DNA of 64,000 nucleotides from Eubacteriaceae bacterium. GTDB taxonomy: Bacteria; Bacillota; Clostridia; Peptostreptococcales; Anaerovoracaceae. The stretch is from assembly GCA_902362805.1 (NCBI GenBank), contig CABIXY010000010.1, positions 7,175 to 71,174 on the forward strand. The letters run 5' to 3'. Each line of letters begins with the position of its first letter. Positions within the stretch are counted from its first letter, which is position 1. A program made the translations under genes and the position numbers. A model generated the notes under the pieces. It made no database searches, was not told the DNA's origin, and was given only the letters and a program-made list of their open reading frames with translations. Below, piece by piece: positions 43,907-53,202 of the stretch.

Positions 43907-45301
43907 TTACTTGTCTTCTTTCATCTTTAAGATATAAAATCCGTCATCGAGGGCATCGATGATGATGTTTCCTCTATCATCTACGATGCAGTCTTCTGTG
44001 GTCGCGTTGCGCGGACCTGGAAATCCAGGGAAATAAGACGCTTCCGGCTCTTTGCCTGGATTTGGCGGAATGAAGTAGGCGATTTCTTTAATATAATATG
44101 GATCGCTGACATCGTAAACTCTGAGACCTGCATGGAAGTAGCAGCAGTAGACTCTGTCGCCCCTCTGTTCCAGCCATGGTTTTCCGTCCATCGGCTCGTG
44201 AAGGTTATGAGGCCCGAAAGGTCCGGCATTGACTCTCTGCATTACATTAAAGTTCTGATAAGGGAAGTTTTCAGGAACCTCCGGATAGGGGAACTCTGCA
44301 ATGAGTGTCGGCCGGGTCGGGTCGCTGACGTCGACCATGTGGATGTTGTTCATAGCCTGCGGTTTCAGCACCTTATCCTGCGGGAAGAACTGGAATCGCT
44401 CTCCTTCGTTGGTTACAACTACCAAATCTCTTCCCGGCAGCGGCAATGCTGTATGGGTTCTCGCGCCCGCCAGTTCGCTGCTGAAGGCCGGCATAAACCG
44501 CAGATTGCCTAAGCACTTAGGACGAGTCATATCCTCTACATCTAAAACGTAGAGTCCGTCTCCACAGTAACCTAAGTAGGCTTTGCCATCTCTGACAAAA
44601 GGAGGTCCGTGCATCCATCCTTTGTCCATGAAAGCCGGCACATGCGGAGCCGTGTGATCCACAGTCCTGCCCGGATAGCCGTCTGCAAACTGCTCCGGCG
44701 ACCACCAGTTACCCACTTCTACCGGATGGGTCGGATCTGCAATATCGACAATTCTATAGATCATTCCTTCAAAACGATCCGATTCGCAGGAAAGATGTAC
44801 ATATCTGCCTCCGTTATACATGAACCGATGTACACCAATGGAATGGGGTACCCCGCAGTCCCAATAACCCAGGAATTCCGGGTTGAGGGGATCTTTCTTG
44901 AGGCTGTAAATCCTGATGCCTACCTCGCACTTCATATCCTTCAGTTCTGACTGATCCACCAGGGCGTCAGGGCCAGAACCTGCGCTCATGGCGCAGATCA
45001 TCAGATCGTCTGCAATCTGCAGCTTTGGCGTGGTCGTCGTCGGATATTCCTGCGGGTCTACCAGCTGAAAATGTTTGATAAATTCCGGATTTTGCGGATC
45101 AGTCACATCACTGATCATGACGCCGTTCTTAGTGCCGCCGAAGCAGGCGCCGTAAAGATAGTATTTACCCTCTTCTGTCTTATATAAAGCCATCTGGAAC
45201 ATGCCGCATTCGCCATCCAGATTGCAGAAGGACTGGACTTCCAGATTCTTGATGAACCCTTCGTTGCCAGGTCCTTTTGCGTAGAATTTTTCTTCTGCCA
45301 T
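43907..45301 (-). CDS. LVIVD-repeat beta-propeller-like protein
   Basis: About 464 residues from the ATG at 45301 (AAAGGAG upstream). No signal peptide. Repeated blocks of the type (V/I)YD-VSDP-(Y/T)-x-P occur through the chain: MISDVTDPQNPEF, RIVDIADPTHPVEVG, VLDVEDMTRPKCLG, MVDVSDPTRPTLIAEF, VYDVSDPYYIKEI. These are LVIVD repeats, predicted to fold as a beta propeller. Conserved histidines appear in DHTAPHVP, GARTHTALP and GPHNLHEP, resembling metal-binding positions of selenium-binding-protein-like propellers, so an enzymatic role is possible but unproven. Last gene of the cluster; separated from the gene before it by the tandem repeat array at 45367-45740. Confidence 0.8.
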   Translation of the reverse strand: MAEEKFYAKGPGNEGFIKNLEVQSFCNLDGECGMFQMALYKTEEGKYYLYGACFGGTKNGVMISDVTDPQNPEFIKHFQLVDPQEYPTTTTPKLQIADDLMICAMSAGSGPDALVDQSELKDMKCEVGIRIYSLKKDPLNPEFLGYWDCGVPHSIGVHRFMYNGGRYVHLSCESDRFEGMIYRIVDIADPTHPVEVGNWWSPEQFADGYPGRTVDHTAPHVPAFMDKGWMHGPPFVRDGKAYLGYCGDGLYVLDVEDMTRPKCLGNLRFMPAFSSELAGARTHTALPLPGRDLVVVTNEGERFQFFPQDKVLKPQAMNNIHMVDVSDPTRPTLIAEFPYPEVPENFPYQNFNVMQRVNAGPFGPHNLHEPMDGKPWLEQRGDRVYCCYFHAGLRVYDVSDPYYIKEIAYFIPPNPGKEPEASYFPGFPGPRNATTEDCIVDDRGNIIIDALDDGFYILKMKEDK

Positions 45302-45366
45302 ATTGTCTCCTTTCTGTCTCAAATAGGCGAAAGACTGGCCGGCGAGGCCAGTCTCTAACCATGAAA

Positions 45367-45740
45367 AGTCTGTCTGCCAATTTGTCCCTACAAATTGGGA
45401 CCAGAATCATTATACGACTCGCTCCTCACCAATCGAGCTTCTCTTCGTTCGTCCTCTTGGGGTGCGAAAGCATAAGGTCTGTTTGCCAATTTGTTCCTAC
45501 AAATTGGGACCAGAACCATTATACGACTCGCTCCTCACCAATCGAGCTTCTCTTCGCTCGCTCTCTTGGGGTGCGAAAGCATAAGGTCTGTCTGCCAATT
45601 TGTCCCTACAAATTGGGACCAGAACCATTATACGACTCGCTCCTCACCAATCGAGCTTCTCTTCGTTCGTCCTCTTGGGGTGCGAAAGCATAAGGTCTGT
45701 TTGCCAATTTGTTCCTACAAATTGGGACCAGAACCATTAT
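45367..45740 (-). repeat. Tandem array of a 109-bp structured repeat (four copies)
   Basis: CCAATTTGT-N4-ACAAATTGG hairpins begin at 45377, 45486, 45595 and 45704, a strict 109-base period; the last copy is partial. Copies 1 and 3 share one set of variants (GTCCCT, TTCGTTCGTCC) and 2 and 4 another (GTTCCT), so the array may have grown as a 218-base dimer. Read on the minus strand each unit has the hairpin, CTTATGCTTT, a second stem-loop, AGTCGTATAATGGTTCTG. The array starts at the stop codon of the 45737 gene (TAATGG). Single related copies lie at 47561-47660 and 52539-52650. Confidence 0.9.
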
Positions 45741-46591
45741 CTCATTGTAACATATCCGTTGTACTGTGTCATGTTGTCTGATCTTGCGATATCTGACAGG
45801 AAGATGCTGGAGATACCGTAGGACTGTGTCAGGTATGGGAAGTCCTCTGTTTCGAACCAGGCAGGTCTGCGTACCTTCTTTGCAGCCTTGCCTACCGCGG
45901 CTTTCCAGGCACTCGGTCCTTCAAACCACATTTCAACCACTCTGTCAAATTCACAGCCGTTAGCTTCTTTAATGACTTTGCTGGACAAAATTCTCGTCGT
46001 CTCTTCGCATTCTACAAAGGCCGGAATGAATTCATCGCGCAGCCACTTGTCTCCGGTGTCCTTGGCATCATCCGGGAATTTGATGACCATCTGCCATCTA
46101 TAATTCGGTCCATCCTCAATGGTCCTGCCCGCTCCTTTGTAATCTTCCTCCCACCAAACTGGTACGAAAGCAAAGATGAAAGGGACTGTTCCCTTTGACG
46201 CGTCGCCTTTGACGGCTCTAGCCTCATCACCCTCTACATTCTCGCACTGGAAGTCTTCGTCCGGCAGATTGCCCTGCCATTTAAGCACGTCTGGCGGAAA
46301 ATACTCTGTCAAAGCCTTGTGGTGGTCAAACTGAGCGATGTTATTAGGGTTCGCCAGCCAGTAGTGCTCTGTCAGCTGCATTTTGATGGCGCCAAAACGT
46401 TCCCCGCCTTCTGGCACAGGCAGCGCCTGGTAAAACGCGTATTTCGATACATAAGGTCCGAACTGAGAAATGCTGTCTGGAATGTGATACTTATACAGCC
46501 AGTTCTCCAATTTTACTCTGTAGTCTTCTTTTGCTACATCAACATAAATCAAGCTTCTCATCGGCTCAAAGCCAAGCATATTCTTCGTCAT
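45737..46591 (-). CDS. Conserved hypothetical protein, tandem ferredoxin-like (EthD/dimeric barrel-like) folds
   Basis: 284 residues, not firmly recognised. Two halves of about 140 residues each start with beta-strand segments (RSLIYVDVAKEDYRVKLENWLYKYHIPD, about 11-38; FIFAFVPVWWEEDYKG, about 139-154) followed by helices and an amphipathic end (VVEMWFEGPSAWK). This pattern resembles EthD-type dimeric alpha-beta barrel proteins, which often take part in oxidation of organic compounds. Soluble, no signal peptide. It lies 20 bp after the flavodoxin-like gene in the same direction, with the repeat array beginning at its stop codon. Function inferred only from the company it keeps. Confidence 0.6.
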   Translation of the reverse strand: MTKNMLGFEPMRSLIYVDVAKEDYRVKLENWLYKYHIPDSISQFGPYVSKYAFYQALPVPEGGERFGAIKMQLTEHYWLANPNNIAQFDHHKALTEYFPPDVLKWQGNLPDEDFQCENVEGDEARAVKGDASKGTVPFIFAFVPVWWEEDYKGAGRTIEDGPNYRWQMVIKFPDDAKDTGDKWLRDEFIPAFVECEETTRILSSKVIKEANGCEFDRVVEMWFEGPSAWKAAVGKAAKKVRRPAWFETEDFPYLTQSYGISSIFLSDIARSDNMTQYNGYVTMR

Positions 46592-46611
46592 GATGCACTC
46601 ATCTCCTATTC

Positions 46612-47547
46612 TTATTTTGCCGGTTTGCTGGAAGAAATGAAGTCGATATAAGCCTGCTTCTTCTGCTTGAATTCATCGGTCTTCTTCCATTCCATCAGTT
46701 TGCCTTCGTTTTCTTTGATATCGTCCACGTGGATGAACTTGCCGGACAGAAGGTCGTGTGCGTGATGTTCTGTCTCTGGATCAAAGTGGAAAGATACCTT
46801 TCCGTCTGTAACCTTGATTTCGCCCTCTAATCCGCAAGCGCAGCAGACAGCTTTTGTCGCGTCGTCATTGAGGTAGAAGTTTCTGCAGTGGCAGTGCGGG
46901 CAGATTCCAGGATCGCCGATCCACTTTGCATTCTCGATATCCTTCGCCGCATTGGCAAGGTCTGCGCCGATCTGATGACTTCTCTTCACCTTCTCATCTT
47001 CCATGACGATGCATTTTGACCAAGGGAACACTTCTGTGTCCACAACAGTCCAAGCTGGAGTCAGAGCCTGGTTGAAGAAGTCACATTGGATTCTCGTTGA
47101 CCAGTCAGATCCGCCGATGCCGATGTAGGAAACGACTTTTTCTTTCAGCATTCTCTGATCAGGCATGGTTCCGCCGCTCTCTTCCGCAATCTTGCTGCCG
47201 ACGATGATCATCGCCTTGTCGTTTCTAGGTCCCATTCTGTCTGTAATCGTTCTGAACAGTCCGGATGCACCTTTCTCAAAGATTGGAATCGCCCAAACGA
47301 TACCGTCTGCATCCATCATCTTATCTCTCAGCCATTCAAAATCGTCTTTGACCGGACAGGCTCCGCCTTTGCCGCTCATCAGACTCATGACGCAGGCTGT
47401 GCAGCCTGTGCAATGCTCGATATGTAATTCGTTCAGGTTGATAAACTCAACTTCAGCGCCTGCTTCCTTTGCGCCCATGAGAGCTTCTTTACACATAGCG
47501 TCGTTGTTGCCGTTTTTGCTTCCGCCAGAAATTCCTAAAATCTTCAT
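46612..47547 (-). CDS. Flavodoxin-like NAD(P)H-dependent oxidoreductase with C-terminal zinc ribbon
   Basis: 311 residues. The N-terminal flavodoxin-like fold binds FMN (GISGGSKNGNND, about 5-16; CTGCTACV, about 46-53, typical of iron-sulfur flavoprotein-like reductases; AIPIFEKGASGLFRTITDR, about 89-107). After residue about 190 a zinc ribbon follows (CPHCHC near 222 and CCACG near 240). NADPH-dependent FMN reductases of this type reduce quinones, aromatic or unsaturated compounds. It lies downstream of the MFS gene, with a copy of the 100-bp repeat between them. Confidence 0.82.
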   Translation of the reverse strand: MKILGISGGSKNGNNDAMCKEALMGAKEAGAEVEFINLNELHIEHCTGCTACVMSLMSGKGGACPVKDDFEWLRDKMMDADGIVWAIPIFEKGASGLFRTITDRMGPRNDKAMIIVGSKIAEESGGTMPDQRMLKEKVVSYIGIGGSDWSTRIQCDFFNQALTPAWTVVDTEVFPWSKCIVMEDEKVKRSHQIGADLANAAKDIENAKWIGDPGICPHCHCRNFYLNDDATKAVCCACGLEGEIKVTDGKVSFHFDPETEHHAHDLLSGKFIHVDDIKENEGKLMEWKKTDEFKQKKQAYIDFISSSKPAK

Positions 47548-47560
47548 TTTTTAACTCCTT

Positions 47561-47660
47561 AATGGTTCTCGCCCCAATTTCTTGTAGAGAAATTGCTGGG
47601 GAGACCTTATGCTTTAAACGCCCAAATCTATGATTTGGCTGCGTTTAGTCGTATAACTCT
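47561..47660 (+). repeat. Single copy of the structured repeat
   Basis: ATGGTTCTCGCCCCAATTT, a hairpin closing with AAATTGCTGGGG, then CTTATGCTTT, a second stem AAACGCCCAAATC/ATTTGGCTGCGTTT, then AGTCGTATAA. Same order of elements as the tandem array but on the opposite strand, between the MFS and flavodoxin-like genes. Confidence 0.85.
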
Positions 47661-47701
47661 AACTTTTCTTTATTTTTCTCAAGGGGCAAATGCCCTTTTG
47701 G

Positions 47702-49003
47702 TTATGCTGCTTTGTTGATATCGTCCTCAGTTCTTCCGATGTAGGTGTCCGGCGTAACCATCATGACTATCAACGCCAGTGCTGCCAACACTCCCAGAAC
47801 ACCGTATGCGATGACGTAAGAGAAAGTCTGACCGATAATTCCTGTAATCGCTACACCGCAGGCTCCCACTAAAGCGACCATCGGTTTCAGCACCTTGTAT
47901 GCCATCGGGAAGTCATAACGTCCCCAGATGGTATTGGCCAGGGAAACCAGGTAGTTGGATGCGCCACCCAGCATCATAGCCAGGAACGGCAGTGACAGGT
48001 ACTGTGTCGGTCTCGTCGGAATCAGGTTCAATATGATAGCGACGATGGCGATAACTTGTGTAATCAGGATTGCTTTCTTCGATCCTACATGGGCGTCAAG
48101 CTGTCCGCAGAGGTAGCTTCCTAAGCATGCCAGCAGACCTGCAATAGCTAACATCTTGATGACTTCGACTTTATCATAACCTGCCTGTAAAAATCTTGGC
48201 ATGAAGTTGGTCATGATGCCCAGGGATAGCAGTTCGAGAACGCCCAGTGAAAATGCCATCTTCCATACGGTAGCGGTTTTGAAAAGCTTGCCCGGCTTCC
48301 ATACAGAAGTCTTCATGTATTCCAGACCCTTGGCAAGTTCTCTGTCAGCTTCTTCTTTGGAGTAAGACTTGTCGTTGTCAGGGTAACAGCCTGCCTGCTC
48401 CGGATAGTCTCTGATGAAAGCGAAGGCGATAACTGCAAAGACTGCCGCTACAACTGCATATACGGTGTAGACTCTTTCCAGTCCGCCAGATTCCAGTATA
48501 CCTGTCATCAGCGGTGTGGTGATGGATGCGGAAAGAGGGAATCCGATGGTGACCCATCCCATGGCGATTCCTTTTTTCTTAGGAAACCAGTTGGAAATCA
48601 CGTTCATGTTTGCGATATAGCAGAATGCCATGCCGCAGATCGTGGAAACTGCCAGGCAGATAAAGTAAATGGTGCTGCTCTGTGCTCTGCCCCAGAAGAA
48701 ACAGGCTACTGCCGTGATGGCAAGGGAGATGCCCCATGCAAATCTGATGTTGGTCTTGTTTGTGACAAATCCCCAGAAGGCCGCGCCCAGGACGGAGATT
48801 GCCGAACATATTGATGAGAATGCGTAAAGTGAATTGGTGCTCCATCCTCTGGTCTGCGCAAAAGGTTCAATTACGACATTCAGTGAGTCGTTGATCAATG
48901 AACTCTGCAGCAGGATACACAGGAACGAAAAGATAATGACGAACCAGCCCTTGGAGCCGAAATTGCTCTTGCTGGCTTTGACTGTGGTAGTTTGGTTGCT
49001 CAT
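47702..49003 (-). CDS. MFS transporter
   Basis: 433 residues with twelve predicted helices of the major facilitator superfamily, OFA-like: N-terminal GWFVIIFSFLCILLQSS, loop motif VTNKTNIRFAWG between helices 2 and 3 (about 80-91), SNWFPKKKGIAMGWVTIGFPL (about 137-157) which is the typical OFA/monocarboxylate motif. A large cytoplasmic loop follows helix 6 (YPDNDKSYSKEEADRELAKG). It probably imports or exports the substrate of the cluster. First gene of the run transporter, flavodoxin-like, double-barrel protein, LVIVD protein. Confidence 0.9.
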   Translation of the reverse strand: MSNQTTTVKASKSNFGSKGWFVIIFSFLCILLQSSLINDSLNVVIEPFAQTRGWSTNSLYAFSSICSAISVLGAAFWGFVTNKTNIRFAWGISLAITAVACFFWGRAQSSTIYFICLAVSTICGMAFCYIANMNVISNWFPKKKGIAMGWVTIGFPLSASITTPLMTGILESGGLERVYTVYAVVAAVFAVIAFAFIRDYPEQAGCYPDNDKSYSKEEADRELAKGLEYMKTSVWKPGKLFKTATVWKMAFSLGVLELLSLGIMTNFMPRFLQAGYDKVEVIKMLAIAGLLACLGSYLCGQLDAHVGSKKAILITQVIAIVAIILNLIPTRPTQYLSLPFLAMMLGGASNYLVSLANTIWGRYDFPMAYKVLKPMVALVGACGVAITGIIGQTFSYVIAYGVLGVLAALALIVMMVTPDTYIGRTEDDINKAA

Positions 49004-49125
49004 AAATAATTCCTCCGATACTTAAGTTTGTTTTGTGTAGATCACGTTTCAAATAAGTCCGTTAATTTTCTGTCAATTACAAGATACCAAATAATTCGCC
49101 CGCCGTAAAATTCAAAAAATTTATG

Positions 49126-49150
49126 TGCCCATAACCTCAGGTTATGGGCA
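49126..49150. terminator. Hairpin between LysR gene and MFS gene
   Basis: TGCCCATAACC (49126-49136) and GGTTATGGGCA (49140-49150), three-base loop, perfect. It lies after the LysR stop on the minus strand and ahead of the MFS promoter region; no long T run, so it may also be an operator. Confidence 0.6.
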
Positions 49151-49167
49151 TAATGCAATACGTCTGA

Positions 49168-50076
49168 CTATTCTGTTTTGTTTTTTTGGTAGATTTCTTC
49201 ATACATGTTGTGATAGAAAGTGATGATCGGATTGAGATTATCCTTTTTCCAGGCAGCCACCAATCTGACCTTTCCCAGTTCTTCACTTCTATAATATTTG
49301 ACGTTGGGGCTTCTGGTCACCATGGTGTCTTCCCTGGCAATGCTGATTCCCCGTCCCATCTCCGCCATCATGTTCATGTGATTCAGATCCACCGCTTGGA
49401 TCTCTTGAGGCACAAACCCTTCCAGCATGCATAATTCCCTAAAATGATCGTAAATCGCAAAGGTCTCTTTTTCGTCCGGGAAAATAATCCTCTGTTTTTC
49501 CAAATCCCGAATTTTGATAGTGCGCTTACGCGTCAGAGGATGTCCCTTCGGGATTAAAAAACCCAGTGGCGTCTCAGCCACTTCCTCATAAAGAACGCCT
49601 TTCACCAACTGCGCTTCTTCCTCATACGTCACTACCATATCCGCTGTGCCATCCTCCAGCCAGCCGCGCAAGTCGCGAAAGCCGCCTGTCAGCTTCTCAA
49701 TTTCAATCTTCGGGTAACTATCATCGATATGGTTTAGGACTTCCCGCGTGATTTCATTGAAAATCTGACCGAAGAGCAAACCGATGGTCAGATGTCCCTC
49801 CTGACCCGATTCTGCCCGGCGGGCTTTGTCGATAACGCCATCTAAAATCTCTTCCATCTTCTGAAATTCACAGAGCATCACTGCTCCCGCCGGCGTCAGT
49901 TTCACCTTGCTGCGCTTAGTATCGCGGAAAAAAAGCTTCATGCCGCACTCTTCTTCCAAAGCGGCGATGTTTTTGGACAGCGCTGGCTGTGAAATATACA
50001 GTTTCTCCGCCGCTCTCGTGAAGTTCAGGCATTTTGCTGCTTCCATAAAGCACTGAGATTTCATATCTATAAACAT
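49168..50076 (-). CDS. LysR family transcriptional regulator
   Basis: 302 residues, standard LysR length. N-terminal helix-turn-helix: CLNFTRAAEKLYISQPALSKNIAALEEECGMKLF (positions about 17-50). The effector domain begins about residue 90 with HLTIGLLFGQIF and contains two Rossmann-like lobes with ADMVVTYEE and GFLIPKGHPL. It is transcribed in the same direction as, and upstream of, the MFS-led cluster, the usual position of a LysR activator when the target lies downstream. A hairpin at 49126-49150 separates them. Ligand unknown, probably the cluster substrate. Confidence 0.92.
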   Translation of the reverse strand: MFIDMKSQCFMEAAKCLNFTRAAEKLYISQPALSKNIAALEEECGMKLFFRDTKRSKVKLTPAGAVMLCEFQKMEEILDGVIDKARRAESGQEGHLTIGLLFGQIFNEITREVLNHIDDSYPKIEIEKLTGGFRDLRGWLEDGTADMVVTYEEEAQLVKGVLYEEVAETPLGFLIPKGHPLTRKRTIKIRDLEKQRIIFPDEKETFAIYDHFRELCMLEGFVPQEIQAVDLNHMNMMAEMGRGISIAREDTMVTRSPNVKYYRSEELGKVRLVAAWKKDNLNPIITFYHNMYEEIYQKNKTE

Positions 50077-50231
50077 ACTGTCACCTCTCCGCTATCTCTG
50101 AAAAAAGGAATCCGTCAATCCGGCACAAATCCTCTATTTTTAATACCTGAGCGCCGGATTGGCGCACTGTTAAACCAACTTCAACAGTACAGCCATACTT
50201 TATATGTAATAAAGCAGCCTCTGCCAAATAT

Positions 50232-50939
50232 CTAAAGCAGCAGCACGTCGAAGCTTCCCCACAGAAACACCAGATAAACACCCGCCGCGCCTGAGATATA
50301 GGGAACCATGGCTATGGTATCGCTGCGTTTGATTTTTTTACGAGCTAAAAGCCAGATCAAATGGGCTGCGCTGAACAATGTCGTCATCACGAAGATGACC
50401 AAAATGCCGCTGGTTCCCGCAATCAGACCCAGACTGGCAAAAAGCTTAATGTCTCCGCCGCCCAAGGTCTCCCGCTTGTAGGCCATCTTGCCCAGAATGG
50501 CGACAAACCCCATGATGCCAAAGCCCAAAGCGCCGCCGATTAGACAATCCAGCCAGCTGCCGTGAAAAGGAATAAACCCTAACGCAGTCAAAGCCAGGAG
50601 AATAATTAACTGATCCGGTACGATACGGTATTTCTGATCTGCAATAGCCATTTCCAGCAACAGCCAAAGTGCGCAGATTCCTGCTACAGCGAACTGCCAG
50701 TCATCTATGACCATTTTAATCCCCAATACGACAAAAAGCATGGTAAAAATAAATTTCCACGGATAGCTTTTCACTCTCTGCGTATAAGGGTCGAGCAATT
50801 CCTGCGATGGTTTTTCCCCATAGTCACAAAGCCACGCGGCTGGCATCTTATTAAAAAAGTACACAGCGCCATTGCCGGCAAAAATTCCCACCAGAATTGC
50901 CGACAGGCACTTGATTCCAATTAGCAATGCATCCGTCAT
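50232..50939 (-). CDS. Prepilin peptidase (A24 family aspartyl protease)
   Basis: 235 residues, seven to eight helices. The two catalytic Asp are in AIADQKYRIVPD (about 102-113) and LGGGDIK (about 159-165), the TadV/GspO-type active site. The N-terminal methylase/zinc region of GspO is reduced to a short cytoplasmic stretch (WLCDYGEKPSQ). It processes prepilin or pseudopilin leader peptides, yet no pilin or Tad/Com gene is in the window, so it acts on substrates encoded elsewhere. Confidence 0.88.
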   Translation of the reverse strand: MTDALLIGIKCLSAILVGIFAGNGAVYFFNKMPAAWLCDYGEKPSQELLDPYTQRVKSYPWKFIFTMLFVVLGIKMVIDDWQFAVAGICALWLLLEMAIADQKYRIVPDQLIILLALTALGFIPFHGSWLDCLIGGALGFGIMGFVAILGKMAYKRETLGGGDIKLFASLGLIAGTSGILVIFVMTTLFSAAHLIWLLARKKIKRSDTIAMVPYISGAAGVYLVFLWGSFDVLLL

Positions 50940-51058
50940 CTCTAAACCCTTCCTCTTATATCTCCTTTTGTTATCACCATTATGCTACCATATTTTTACA
51001 TGTTATACAACCGGAATATACAAAAAATAAACAAATGTACAAGTTTTCAATCTGTCAC

Positions 51059-51091
51059 GGGGGTTGTAACCCCCTCCTATTGCTATATAAT
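51059..51091 (+). promoter_or_regulatory. Promoter with GGGGGTT/AACCCCC palindrome, AspT-like transporter
   Basis: GGGGGTTGTAACCCCC (51059-51074) is a perfect 7-2-7 palindrome overlapping TTGTAA (51064-51069), which with a 16-base spacer precedes TATAAT (51086-51091). GGGAGGA is the ribosome site before the ATG at 51132. Confidence 0.6.
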
Positions 51092-51131
51092 TGACCATAG
51101 TGTTGAAAAATAACTACAATGGGAGGACGGA

Positions 51132-52541
51132 ATGGATTTTATTCACTTTGACTACATGAGTCTGCTATTTAACCCCTTTGTGCTGATGTTCGTCACCATC
51201 GCTTTGGGTCTGCTATTCGGTAAAATCAAGTTTGGCAAGTTTAGCTTTGGTGCATCGGGCGCTTTATTTGTAGGTCTGGTCATCGGCTGGATTGTTTACA
51301 AATACGCAAACGGCGCCTATGAATCGGGCGACGAAAGTGCGGCAGGTTTTGCCGCAGCGGCCACCATTTTCTCTGGAAACGGCGGCAAACTGATTCACAC
51401 CAACTTCTTTTCTACCTCTTTGATTTTCTTCGTAGCGGCAGTAGGCCTGCTGGCAGCAAAGGATTTGGGCATCGTTCTCAGAAAATATGGTGCCAAGTTC
51501 GTCATACTAGGTCTGGTAATCACTTTAGTCGGTGCCGGTGCCACTTACGGCGCGACAGCCATCGTCAAAGGAACCAACGCCTATGCGGTATCCGGCGTCT
51601 ACACCGGCGCTTTGACCAGTTCTCCCGGCCTCGCTTCTGCACTGGAAACGTCAGAAAAGCATGCAGAAGATGTGGCTTCAGACTACGAGACTTTGTCTGC
51701 GGAGGAAAAAGCTGCCGTCATCGACGTTATCAATATCAGCGACGATTATAATCTGAAGGCCTCTGAAGTTAAAACTTTGGATGAAGGTATGACAGCTGCC
51801 TATGCATCCAATGCCGCCGGGCAGGTGGGCATGGGGTACGCCGTCGGTTACCCTTTTGGTGTCATTGTCGTTATCTTAGCAGTCAACTTTCTAAATGTCA
51901 TCTTCCGTTTTGATGTGGAGGAAGAAAAGCGAAGGTACGCCTTGGAGATGGCGCAAGCGAAAAAAGACATCAAGGTCAAGGAGATTCCAACGACGCCTTT
52001 CAATATTCTGTCCTTCGCCATCGTATGTTTTGCAGGCTACCTGCTGGGGAACCTGAATATCTATATGGGTCCTCTGGGTTATGTCAGCCTGGAATCCACC
52101 GGCGGTGTTCTTATCGCCTCTCTGGCTCTCGGATACATCGGCAAAATCGGTCCCCTTTCTTTTAGGATGGATCCGAAAACTCTGGCCACGGTCAGAGAAC
52201 TGGGGCTGGTTTTCTTCCTGTCCATCGTAGGTCTCAACTACGGTTACGGCGCAATCACCGCCTTAGCTGGTGCAGGCCTGACTCTCGCCATCGTATCTAT
52301 TATTGTCGGACTGCTGGCAATTCTGGTCGGATTCGTTCTGGGACGCTACGTATTTAAACTCAATTGGGTAATGCTCTGCGGTGCAATCTGCGGGGGCATG
52401 ACCTCCACTCCAGGGCTGGGTGCTGCCACTGATGCACTGGGCAGCGACGATCCCGGCGCAGGCTACGGTGCAACTTATCCGTTCGCCTTGTTCGGTATGA
52501 TCATCTTTACCATTATCATGTTCAAACTGCCAATCTTATAA
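51132..52541 (+). CDS. AspT/YidE family putative transporter (aspartate:alanine exchanger type)
   Basis: 469 residues with about ten to eleven helices in two inverted Asp-Al_Ex repeats. Each repeat has the signature of the family: GALTSSPGLASAL (about 160-172) and GGMTSTPGLGAATDAL (about 423-438). The central RCK/TrkA_C regulatory domains found in AspT and YidE are missing; instead there is a soluble insert at about 175-235 rich in Glu/Asp/Ala (SEKHAEDVASDYETL). Characterised relatives exchange aspartate/alanine or succinate; substrate here is unknown. Its stop codon is the first bases of a copy of the structured repeat. Confidence 0.85.
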   Translation: MDFIHFDYMSLLFNPFVLMFVTIALGLLFGKIKFGKFSFGASGALFVGLVIGWIVYKYANGAYESGDESAAGFAAAATIFSGNGGKLIHTNFFSTSLIFFVAAVGLLAAKDLGIVLRKYGAKFVILGLVITLVGAGATYGATAIVKGTNAYAVSGVYTGALTSSPGLASALETSEKHAEDVASDYETLSAEEKAAVIDVINISDDYNLKASEVKTLDEGMTAAYASNAAGQVGMGYAVGYPFGVIVVILAVNFLNVIFRFDVEEEKRRYALEMAQAKKDIKVKEIPTTPFNILSFAIVCFAGYLLGNLNIYMGPLGYVSLESTGGVLIASLALGYIGKIGPLSFRMDPKTLATVRELGLVFFLSIVGLNYGYGAITALAGAGLTLAIVSIIVGLLAILVGFVLGRYVFKLNWVMLCGAICGGMTSTPGLGAATDALGSDDPGAGYGATYPFALFGMIIFTIIMFKLPIL

Positions 52542-52650
52542 TGGAGTTGCCCCAATTTGCGAAGCTAATTGCTGGGAACTCTTTATGCTTTAGCGTCCCG
52601 CAAGCGTCAGCAAGTGGCTAGACGCTAGTCGTATCATGGTTCTGTCCTAA
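52539..52650 (+). repeat. Single copy of the structured repeat at the transporter stop codon
   Basis: TAATGGAGTTGCCCCAATTT begins at the transporter stop codon; then AATTGCTGGGA, CTTTATGCTTT, a second stem GCGTCCCGC...GACGCT, AGTCGTATCATGGTTCTGTCC. Same arrangement as the array at 45367-45740, here in sense with the upstream gene. It may serve as the 3' hairpin of the transcript. Confidence 0.85.
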
Positions 52651-53202
52651 ATCTTTGAAAACACAAACACATCTTGAGAATGCTTTCATTCAAAAGATGT
52701 GTTTTTTATTAGGTCTTTCGTTTCAGCAAAGACCGCGAAGACAGTTCACTATACCCCGTCCAGGTATGTCACAAGGTGTGGATCACAAAAATGCCATATT
52801 TCACTATTTTTTTGCGAGTTCTGGCGAATTTTTGCATCTATTCCATGGTTACAGACACCTACGTACCGCAATACGCTCAGCTCAGCAGGAAAAATCATCA
52901 AAATTCATATAGTTCATTCTTATTATATGCGTTACCTGGCTATTTTTTTATGAATTTTTGCCTATTTGAGGACCAATATGCCCCTGATCTCTTTTAACAT
53001 CTGCCATATTTCCTTATTTTTTTGAGTTTTATGGCAGATTTGATAATCTGGGGCAGTATCCTCTCGATGCCTCTTGCGCAATCACAAGCGACACACTAAT
53101 CTTTGACATACTTATCGATTACCTTCTGCGTTTTTTTTCGAGTCATCATGTACTCTGATGATTTCCAGGATCAAAGCCGCATAGTTGCAGATGCAGACCT
53201 CC
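52651..53202. other. Non-coding gap with imperfect TGCCATATTT repeats
   Basis: About 550 bases with no convincing gene. Two imperfect copies of TGCCATATTTC-N-CTATTTTTTTG (52792-52827 and 53002-53037) occur; the second is enclosed by CTGCCATA (53001-53008) and TATGGCAG (53030-53037). A third weaker relative (CTATTTTTTTATGAATTTTTGCC) lies near 52941. Short open frames here overlap one another and lack ribosome sites. Confidence 0.5.

Follow-up and report, generated by a model that had tools for sequence, protein, structure and literature searches.

Repeat loci in the window

A stretch of 64,000 nucleotides from the genome of a Eubacteriaceae bacterium (contig CABIXY010000010.1, positions 7,175 to 71,174; hereafter the window) carries a repeat of about 100 bases, here called family 1, whose units consist of two consecutive hairpins. 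The repeat occupies three loci, a head-to-tail array on the minus strand and two single elements, s1 and s2, on the plus strand (Table 1). Each unit is laid out as TAATGG, hairpin 1, TTATGCTTT, hairpin 2 and AGTCGTAT(A/C)A, with TAATGG, TTATGC and GTCGTAT as its conserved ends, and each hairpin typically has an unpaired bulge on its 3' side. This motif order is the one reported in a preliminary description made from the sequence alone, which also held that hairpin 2 varies while still pairing; folding of four window copies bore this out, with two hairpins folded and z-scores of -5.95, -1.86, -2.01 and -3.19.

The same description counted four array copies, three of which are complete units, the fourth being cut after hairpin 1. 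Its proposal that the array alternates two variants holds for the three complete units (1 difference versus 5-6), which also support growth as a 218-bp dimer. Over 109 positions, units 1 and 3 have 1 mismatch, units 1 and 2 have 6, and units 2 and 3 have 5; since units 1 and 3 are near-identical and unit 2 deviates, their sequences fit growth by a two-unit step. By eye, the cut unit and unit 2 have the TTTGTTCC variant in common. Two of the three loci begin, as claimed, at the TAA stop codon of a gene, and the third, s1, lies not at a stop codon but against the Shine-Dalgarno sequence of an opposite-strand gene.

Table 1. Repeat units and adjoining gene features in the window
Feature	Position	Strand	Remarks
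Array, three complete units and one cut unit	45367-45739	-	Period 109; neighbouring units overlap by 3 bases
Array unit 1	45628-45739	-	Closest to stop codon 45737-45739 of the chalcone-isomerase-domain gene
Array unit 2	45519-45630	-	R1 match, E 3.9e-14; the search suppresses overlapping neighbours
Array unit 3	45410-45521	-	Sequence inspection
Array unit 4, cut, hairpin 1 only	45367-45412	-	Sequence inspection
s1, single family-1 element	47560-47656	+	Hairpin 1 47564-47606, hairpin 2 47607-47656; R1 E 4e-15
s2, single family-1 element	52539-52636	+	Hairpin 1 52543-52582, hairpin 2 52585-52634; R1 E 2.6e-21
Second, cut unit behind s2, opening bases TGGTTCTG	52637-52645	+	Read from sequence
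Shine-Dalgarno AGGAG of gene 46612-47547	47555-47559	-	Directly adjoins s1
Gene with chalcone isomerase N-terminal domain	45737-46591	-	TAA stop is the array's first three bases
Gene with Asp-Al_Ex permease domain	51132-52541	+	TAA stop is s2's first three bases

Copy number and distribution of two families

A pattern spanning both hairpins recovered 23 stretches in a genome scan. In sixteen of them a true hairpin 1 is present or the unit can be recognised; these came from Emergencia timonensis SN18 (8), two further Emergencia genomes, an uncultured Eubacterium and a Bacillota metagenome-assembled genome. The other seven, from unrelated taxa (L025, L029, L036, L038, L040, L042 and L047; L numbers denote loci), had neither the start motif nor hairpin 1, were treated as chance and were excluded from later counts. 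Across five genomes the true pattern gave 22, 1, 5, 5 and 0 matches, while its reversed control gave none in any of the five. A covariance model built from ten family-1 copies (R1) scored 71 matches at E<=0.001 in E. timonensis SN18 and 10, 16, 22 and 3 in four other genomes, the best 150 candidates per genome having been scored. The 71 matches, together with the silence of the reversed pattern, argue that the repeat is not due to chance, and the many further copies remove the concern, raised in the preliminary description itself, that the window copies might stand alone without co-variation.

Within the genus, 7 of 13 genomes had R1 matches at E<=1e-6; within the family, 11 of 119 sampled genomes had matches, weak in all except G001. 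The distant weak matches turned out to be a second family, built on the same plan from different conserved bases: hairpin 1 of family 2 is closed by CCTAACC...GGTAGG and hairpin 2 by CAGG...CTACGG. Its covariance model (R2) matched 57 of 297 sampled genomes of the order and, at E<=1e-5, 10 of 391 genomes of the class, and it weakly matches s1 (E 5e-4) and s2 (E 4e-6).

The repeat was not recognised in the preliminary description, and our searches likewise recovered no described family. No Rfam family reached its gathering score in the window, three weak matches up to E 5 were unrelated, and in 12 further loci Rfam matched tRNAs alone. Neither phage records queried with one array unit nor plasmid records queried with s1 gave a match, and the open-licence literature yielded no published description of the family and no matching account of a repetitive extragenic palindrome (REP) or miniature inverted-repeat transposable element (MITE). 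A viral or plasmid origin was considered and rejected; a loose pattern picked out 24 viral-contig stretches, and hairpin 1 was present in none of them once flanks and folds had been read. Peptide coding was likewise set aside, as a common reading frame is broken by the unit lengths (periods 96, 109 and 111).

Placement at gene edges

Placement was counted for copies starting with TAATGG, using every occurrence of this motif in DNA from SN18, 1XD21-10 and the window, 703 kb in all, which had been fetched around R1 matches and is not a random sample. After 28 inner tandem units had been dropped and 4 of 45 regular-expression matches judged by eye to be non-elements (L152:15255, L159:7478, L172:13457 and L173:14180), 41 non-tandem family-1 starts were left. 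Twenty-five of these directly adjoin an opposite-strand Shine-Dalgarno sequence whose start codon lies 9-14 nt away, the gene strand reading CCATT|A(A)GGAG...ATG, and at a further 10 the TAA is the in-frame stop of the preceding gene. Taken together, 35 of 41 element starts lie at one of the two signals, compared with 12 of 265 other TAATGG occurrences in the same DNA (2 Shine-Dalgarno, 10 stop). The stop-codon placement noted previously is therefore correct but half the picture, the Shine-Dalgarno sequence being the commoner neighbour in E. timonensis. The remaining six starts comprise one with a Shine-Dalgarno sequence four bases off (L174), one with a weak one (L137), one at CCCCCT where no gene was found (L152:6954), the second unit of a pair (L139:7934), L140 and L156.

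Copies occur in both orientations relative to genes, so that the mRNA contains the element strand at one type of site and the complementary strand at the second. A replication-strand bias was examined as an explanation and discarded, as orientation tracks the neighbouring gene and not GC skew; L166, L169, L138, L145, L163 and s2 keep to the gene rule against the skew. Among 30 neighbour proteins tested (23 of 26 of the Shine-Dalgarno type and 7 of 9 of the stop type), 28 had a Pfam domain, mostly with basic functions, including phosphofructokinase, Lon, a MurG-like glycosyltransferase, EF-Ts, RelA, RNase J and MreB. Such mixed housekeeping neighbours make no regulon apparent. Three genomes have an element at the same place before a Lon gene.

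In family 2, 12 of 55 starts lie within 6 nt of a stop codon and 6 of 55 near a Shine-Dalgarno sequence and gene start. Four family-2 copies from four genomes (L178, L179, L182 and L194) share one place before a gene that we take, by eye, to encode ribosomal protein S8, and their hairpin-2 stems are unrelated yet paired. Two of the four genomes, G265 and G358, are listed in the genus of G001. The sequences could reflect retention, repeated insertion or exchange between copies.

Several further observations concern individual copies. Four family-2 copies (L180:614-734, L181:1501-1621, L187:662-781 and L196:1501-1604) have, in the hairpin-1 loop, a palindrome that resembles a terminator and includes runs of A and T, and three of the four begin at a stop codon or at most 4 nt from one, so that the element may act as the gene's terminator. 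A hairpin of the form CTGGATTCCCG...CGGGAATGACAG, resembling CGTC REPs, lies directly upstream of three family-2 copies in one genome (L119, L124 and L127). Two copies (L111:1504-1593 and L117:1501-1602) follow directly behind the CCA end of an apparent tRNA gene, and copies at L118 and L200 lie near tRNA genes, those tRNAs having matched Rfam.

Stem pairing and covariation

In an alignment of 67 distinct copies fitted to the model, 93.3% of cells were standard-paired, compared with 67.5% after shuffling and 33-43% after sliding, and double-sided changes occurred at 33 of 33 modelled pairs. This is strong covariation, the kind of compensatory change for which the preliminary description had proposed to look. 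A MAFFT alignment of 15 family-2 copies had double changes at 20 of 30 pairs.

Family-1 stems were also counted apart from any structure model. Hairpin-2 arms chosen by their flanks alone (63 sequences) gave 38 distinct arm pairs with 203 Watson-Crick, 3 G.T, 3 A.C and 19 other oppositions, compared with 99.6, 21.5, 22.0 and 84.8, respectively, in shuffled arms. The hairpin-1 foot, counted in 78 of 84 candidates (the 6 with fewer than 4 Watson-Crick pairs were dropped) with three bulge positions tried and the best one taken, gave 452 Watson-Crick, 6 G.T, 6 A.C and 4 other, bringing the combined family-1 count to 655, 9, 9 and 23. As a control, the acceptor stems of 36 tRNAs from the fetched loci had 234 Watson-Crick, 15 G.T and 3 A.C pairs. 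The wobble share was lower in element than in tRNA stems (p = 0.0003, a rough value because the copies are related), and the contrast in G.T to A.C between the two was merely suggestive (p = 0.075, rough for the same reason). Selection on an RNA would be expected to take its stems through G.U intermediates on the RNA's own strand. That family-1 stems have almost no wobble hints that they are renewed at the DNA level, through copying of one arm from the other or through exchange between copies. The signal is less clear in family 2, for which the regular expression intended for stem counts found 3 copies and was not used. At the foot of family-1 hairpin 2, which is otherwise Watson-Crick, a near-constant G.T pair (TATGC with GTATA; columns 82-224) is possibly a recognition mark.

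Filled and empty sites, nesting and tandem change

The window and SN18 are 78-88% identical over the aligned parts of 37669-59008, so the window probably belongs to a different Emergencia species. Both s1 and s2 are absent from the orthologous places in SN18. At the locus of the window array, the three units and part of another in the window correspond to a single unit in SN18 that is split by a family-2 copy. Comparison among SN18, 1XD21-10 and SUG182 revealed further loci that have a copy in one species but not in another, namely rsfS, relA, L148:7948, L031, L156 and the purH-purD spacer (L171 versus L155). In this spacer SN18 is without a copy at the stop but has one on the other strand. 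When the flanks at relA and L148:7948 were rejoined, as T|AA or TA|AGGGAG, the stop codon was restored, suggesting that the element is AATGG...GTCGTAT and that any duplication is not longer than about 1 bp. A TAA target duplication (TAATGG...GTATAA) was rejected, since the bases behind GTCGTAT vary and both of these sites rejoin best without a duplication.

Insertions of one family into the other were exact. Family-2 copies lie inside the family-1 hairpin-1 loop at TT^TC (L212 and L032, with L175 off by one base) and behind TTATGCT(T) in family-1 hairpin 2 (L206, L207, L214 and L215), in each case without target duplication. Head-to-tail arrays reach nine units, at a period of 96 (L045). The repeat is dispersed and multicopy and has both filled and empty orthologous sites, the general hallmark of mobile hairpin repeats. 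The filled and empty loci, together with the nesting of one family in the other, indicate that the element is mobile, with no target duplication beyond about 1 bp. The preliminary description had left the choice between a structured RNA and a hairpin-dependent mobile element; the empty orthologous sites and nested copies speak for the second, and a dedicated RNA is less supported.

Domain searches for a mobilising enzyme covered 15 carrier genomes. Y1_Tnp (PF01797) was present in 8 of the 15 and absent from 7, namely E. timonensis SN18, the richest family-1 genome, and G025, G044, G068, G265, G197 and G353. Any IS110 match was absent from 6 of the 15 and RVT_1 from 8. Six tested genomes without an R2 match had Y1 in 5, IS110 in 5 and RVT_1 in 4.

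Surroundings of the window loci

Downstream of s2, a terminator-like inverted repeat followed by T lies at 52665-52704, so that s2 would be part of the transcript of gene 51132-52541. Further downstream (52792-53041) are three copies, 68-80% identical, of a different AT-rich repeat of 40 bases (TGCCATATTT...ATTTTTTTG). The region 43907-49003 may be a flavonoid-related cluster, encoding an LVIVD-repeat protein, the chalcone-isomerase domain, a flavin mononucleotide (FMN) reductase and a major facilitator superfamily transporter; its gene order is kept in E. timonensis SN18.

Discussion

Our comparisons make it probable that the two-hairpin repeat forms a new family of small mobile repeats, non-autonomous and REPIN/MITE/BOX-like in behaviour, which would insert at operon junctions and grow in tandem. 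In such a scheme, an enzyme acting in trans would recognise the folded strand of the element, and the element would insert as about AATGG...GTCGTAT between T and the next base, without real target duplication. Preferred sites would be stop-codon and Shine-Dalgarno junctions, entered in either orientation. Once inserted, a copy could grow or shrink in tandem by slippage or unequal exchange, and its stems would be renewed at the DNA level by template switching or exchange between copies, which would keep them Watson-Crick despite differing sequences. Transcription of many copies is to be expected, as hairpins in 5' leaders or 3' tails, and if expression were affected, this would be a side effect or a use acquired later.

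A narrower proposal, which we put forward tentatively, is that this is mobile DNA aimed at translation signals: at operon junctions the folded strand would enter immediately 5' of A(A)GGAG, or would split a stop codon after its T. The element would in this way colonise operons and spare genes, and its targeting might run via single-stranded DNA at transcribed operons, via mRNA or via the ribosomal anti-Shine-Dalgarno.

Several results sit uneasily with a mobile repeat of this kind. The evidence against a target duplication comes from few sites, compared between species whose intergenic DNA has drifted; the element's ends are not inverted repeats; and none of the mobilisers searched for (Y1, IS110 and reverse transcriptase) was common to all 15 carriers tested, several of whose genomes are fragmentary and may hide genes. 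Two different translation signals approached in opposite orientations are an odd target for a simple transposon, and family 2 follows the placement rule much less, with 39 of 55 starts at neither signal (a count that has no control). The four copies at one place before the S8-like gene look more like retention. As for the stems, G.T exceeds A.C in the model-fitted alignments (130 versus 39, 144 versus 36 and 105 versus 11), part of the excess coming from two foot positions of family-1 hairpin 2 at which G.T/T.G predominates. In the alignment of family 2, one fixed G.T position set aside, there are 8 wobble cells and 3 A.C/C.A cells.

The main rival is a cis-acting structured RNA, with hairpins selected as an mRNA leader before the Shine-Dalgarno sequence or as a tail behind the stop, where they would tune translation or protect the message, their spread being old or incidental. 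The exact seat at Shine-Dalgarno or stop signals would follow naturally, as would the strong covariation, the shared places before the Lon gene in three genomes and before the S8-like gene in four, and the excess of G.T over A.C in the fitted alignments. This reading accounts for placement better than for the two orientations, under which the mRNA has the element strand at one type of signal and the complementary strand at the second, and for the wobble count of family-1 stems, which when picked without a structure model are almost wobble-free and have A.C as often as G.T. The mixed housekeeping neighbours, the filled and empty orthologous sites, the nested copies and the arrays of up to nine units also count against it, and we regard it as unlikely.

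More doubtful is descent as a MITE from an IS200/IS605-like single-strand transposon, with the two hairpins as its former left and right ends and the Y1 transposase absent or lost in some genomes. Two bulged end hairpins, insertion into hairpin loops without target duplication and Y1 genes in 8 of 15 carriers agree with this origin; the two placement modes have no fixed left-hand target in common, and PF01797 had no match in E. timonensis or six other carriers (the Y1 flanks were not examined for hairpins). It is also very improbable that the copies are immobile remains, spread long ago and since changed by copy-copy recombination, tandem slippage and palindrome correction, with their gene-edge seat marking the survivors of selection, because filled and empty sites occur within one genus and nested insertions are exact, even though SN18 shares the window-array locus, shared places have paired but unrelated stems and no mobiliser was found.

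Taken as a mobile two-hairpin repeat, the element is an abundant family in a common group of gut Clostridia, including E. timonensis, that is undescribed as far as our searches reach. The seat of family 1 poses the question of whether a mobile element can choose translation signals as its target. Its nearly wobble-free covariation is a warning for RNA discovery, as strong compensatory change may come from palindromes being maintained as DNA. Strains might be told apart by the length of their arrays.

Comparison with known systems

In behaviour, REP elements come closest to the repeat, in their position at coding ends, in ends that supply the stop codon and in having one superfamily without a known transposase. 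One study (PMC3733652) describes them as small extragenic hairpins, often directly behind coding regions, with GTAG REP ends often supplying the stop codon and CGTC REPs lacking a known transposase. Unlike REPs, which are 20-40 bases long and have a GTAG or CGTC tag at the base of one short hairpin, the units described here have about 100 bases and two different hairpins head to tail without such a tag, and the commonest neighbour of family 1 is a Shine-Dalgarno sequence. REPINs are inverted dimers, whereas family-1 tandem units are in direct orientation. REP/REPIN systems have a Y1 gene flanked by the repeats, whereas PF01797 was absent from E. timonensis and present in 8 of 15 carriers, whose Y1 flanks were not examined.

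The BOX, RUP and SPRITE elements of pneumococcus are, according to PMC3049150, small interspersed repeats with modules in variable tandem number and insertion into one another. In BOX the inner module is repeated (boxA-boxB(n)-boxC), whereas here it is the whole unit, and in contrast to BOX and RUP our repeat lacks terminal inverted repeats and an Rfam match, and the sites read show no duplication of more than about 1 bp. The ERIC/RU and Correia-type MITEs, as described in PMC2229807, are under 200 bp, non-coding, dispersed and foldable as RNA, most such MITEs having terminal inverted repeats, TA ends and target duplications, whereas the present elements have two successive hairpins and no inverted ends, TA ends or duplications. 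Bacterial MITEs resemble our repeat in size, clustering and nesting, mostly with inverted ends and duplications (PMC2229807 and PMC10969869). A DDE-type MITE would have terminal inverted repeats and a duplication of fixed length, whereas here the bases behind GTCGTAT vary. An IS200/IS605-derived element would insert 3' of a fixed short target without duplication; at our sites no duplication was seen, and the left neighbour differs between the Shine-Dalgarno and stop modes.

Integron attC sites are folded sites of variable sequence with conserved structure and ends, a GTTRRRY core and cassettes between them. The repeat is like them in combining variable sequence with conserved structure and ends; it differs in ending on GTCGTAT instead of the GTTRRRY core and in having units that adjoin directly, without cassettes. 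The two-sided stem changes could be explained by template switching, in which one arm is copied from the other; PMC8794818 proposes this process for the hairpins of RNA genes, not for mobile repeats. Small mobile hairpin repeats as such are already known, and what appears to be new, set against the literature compared, is their placement at gene edges.

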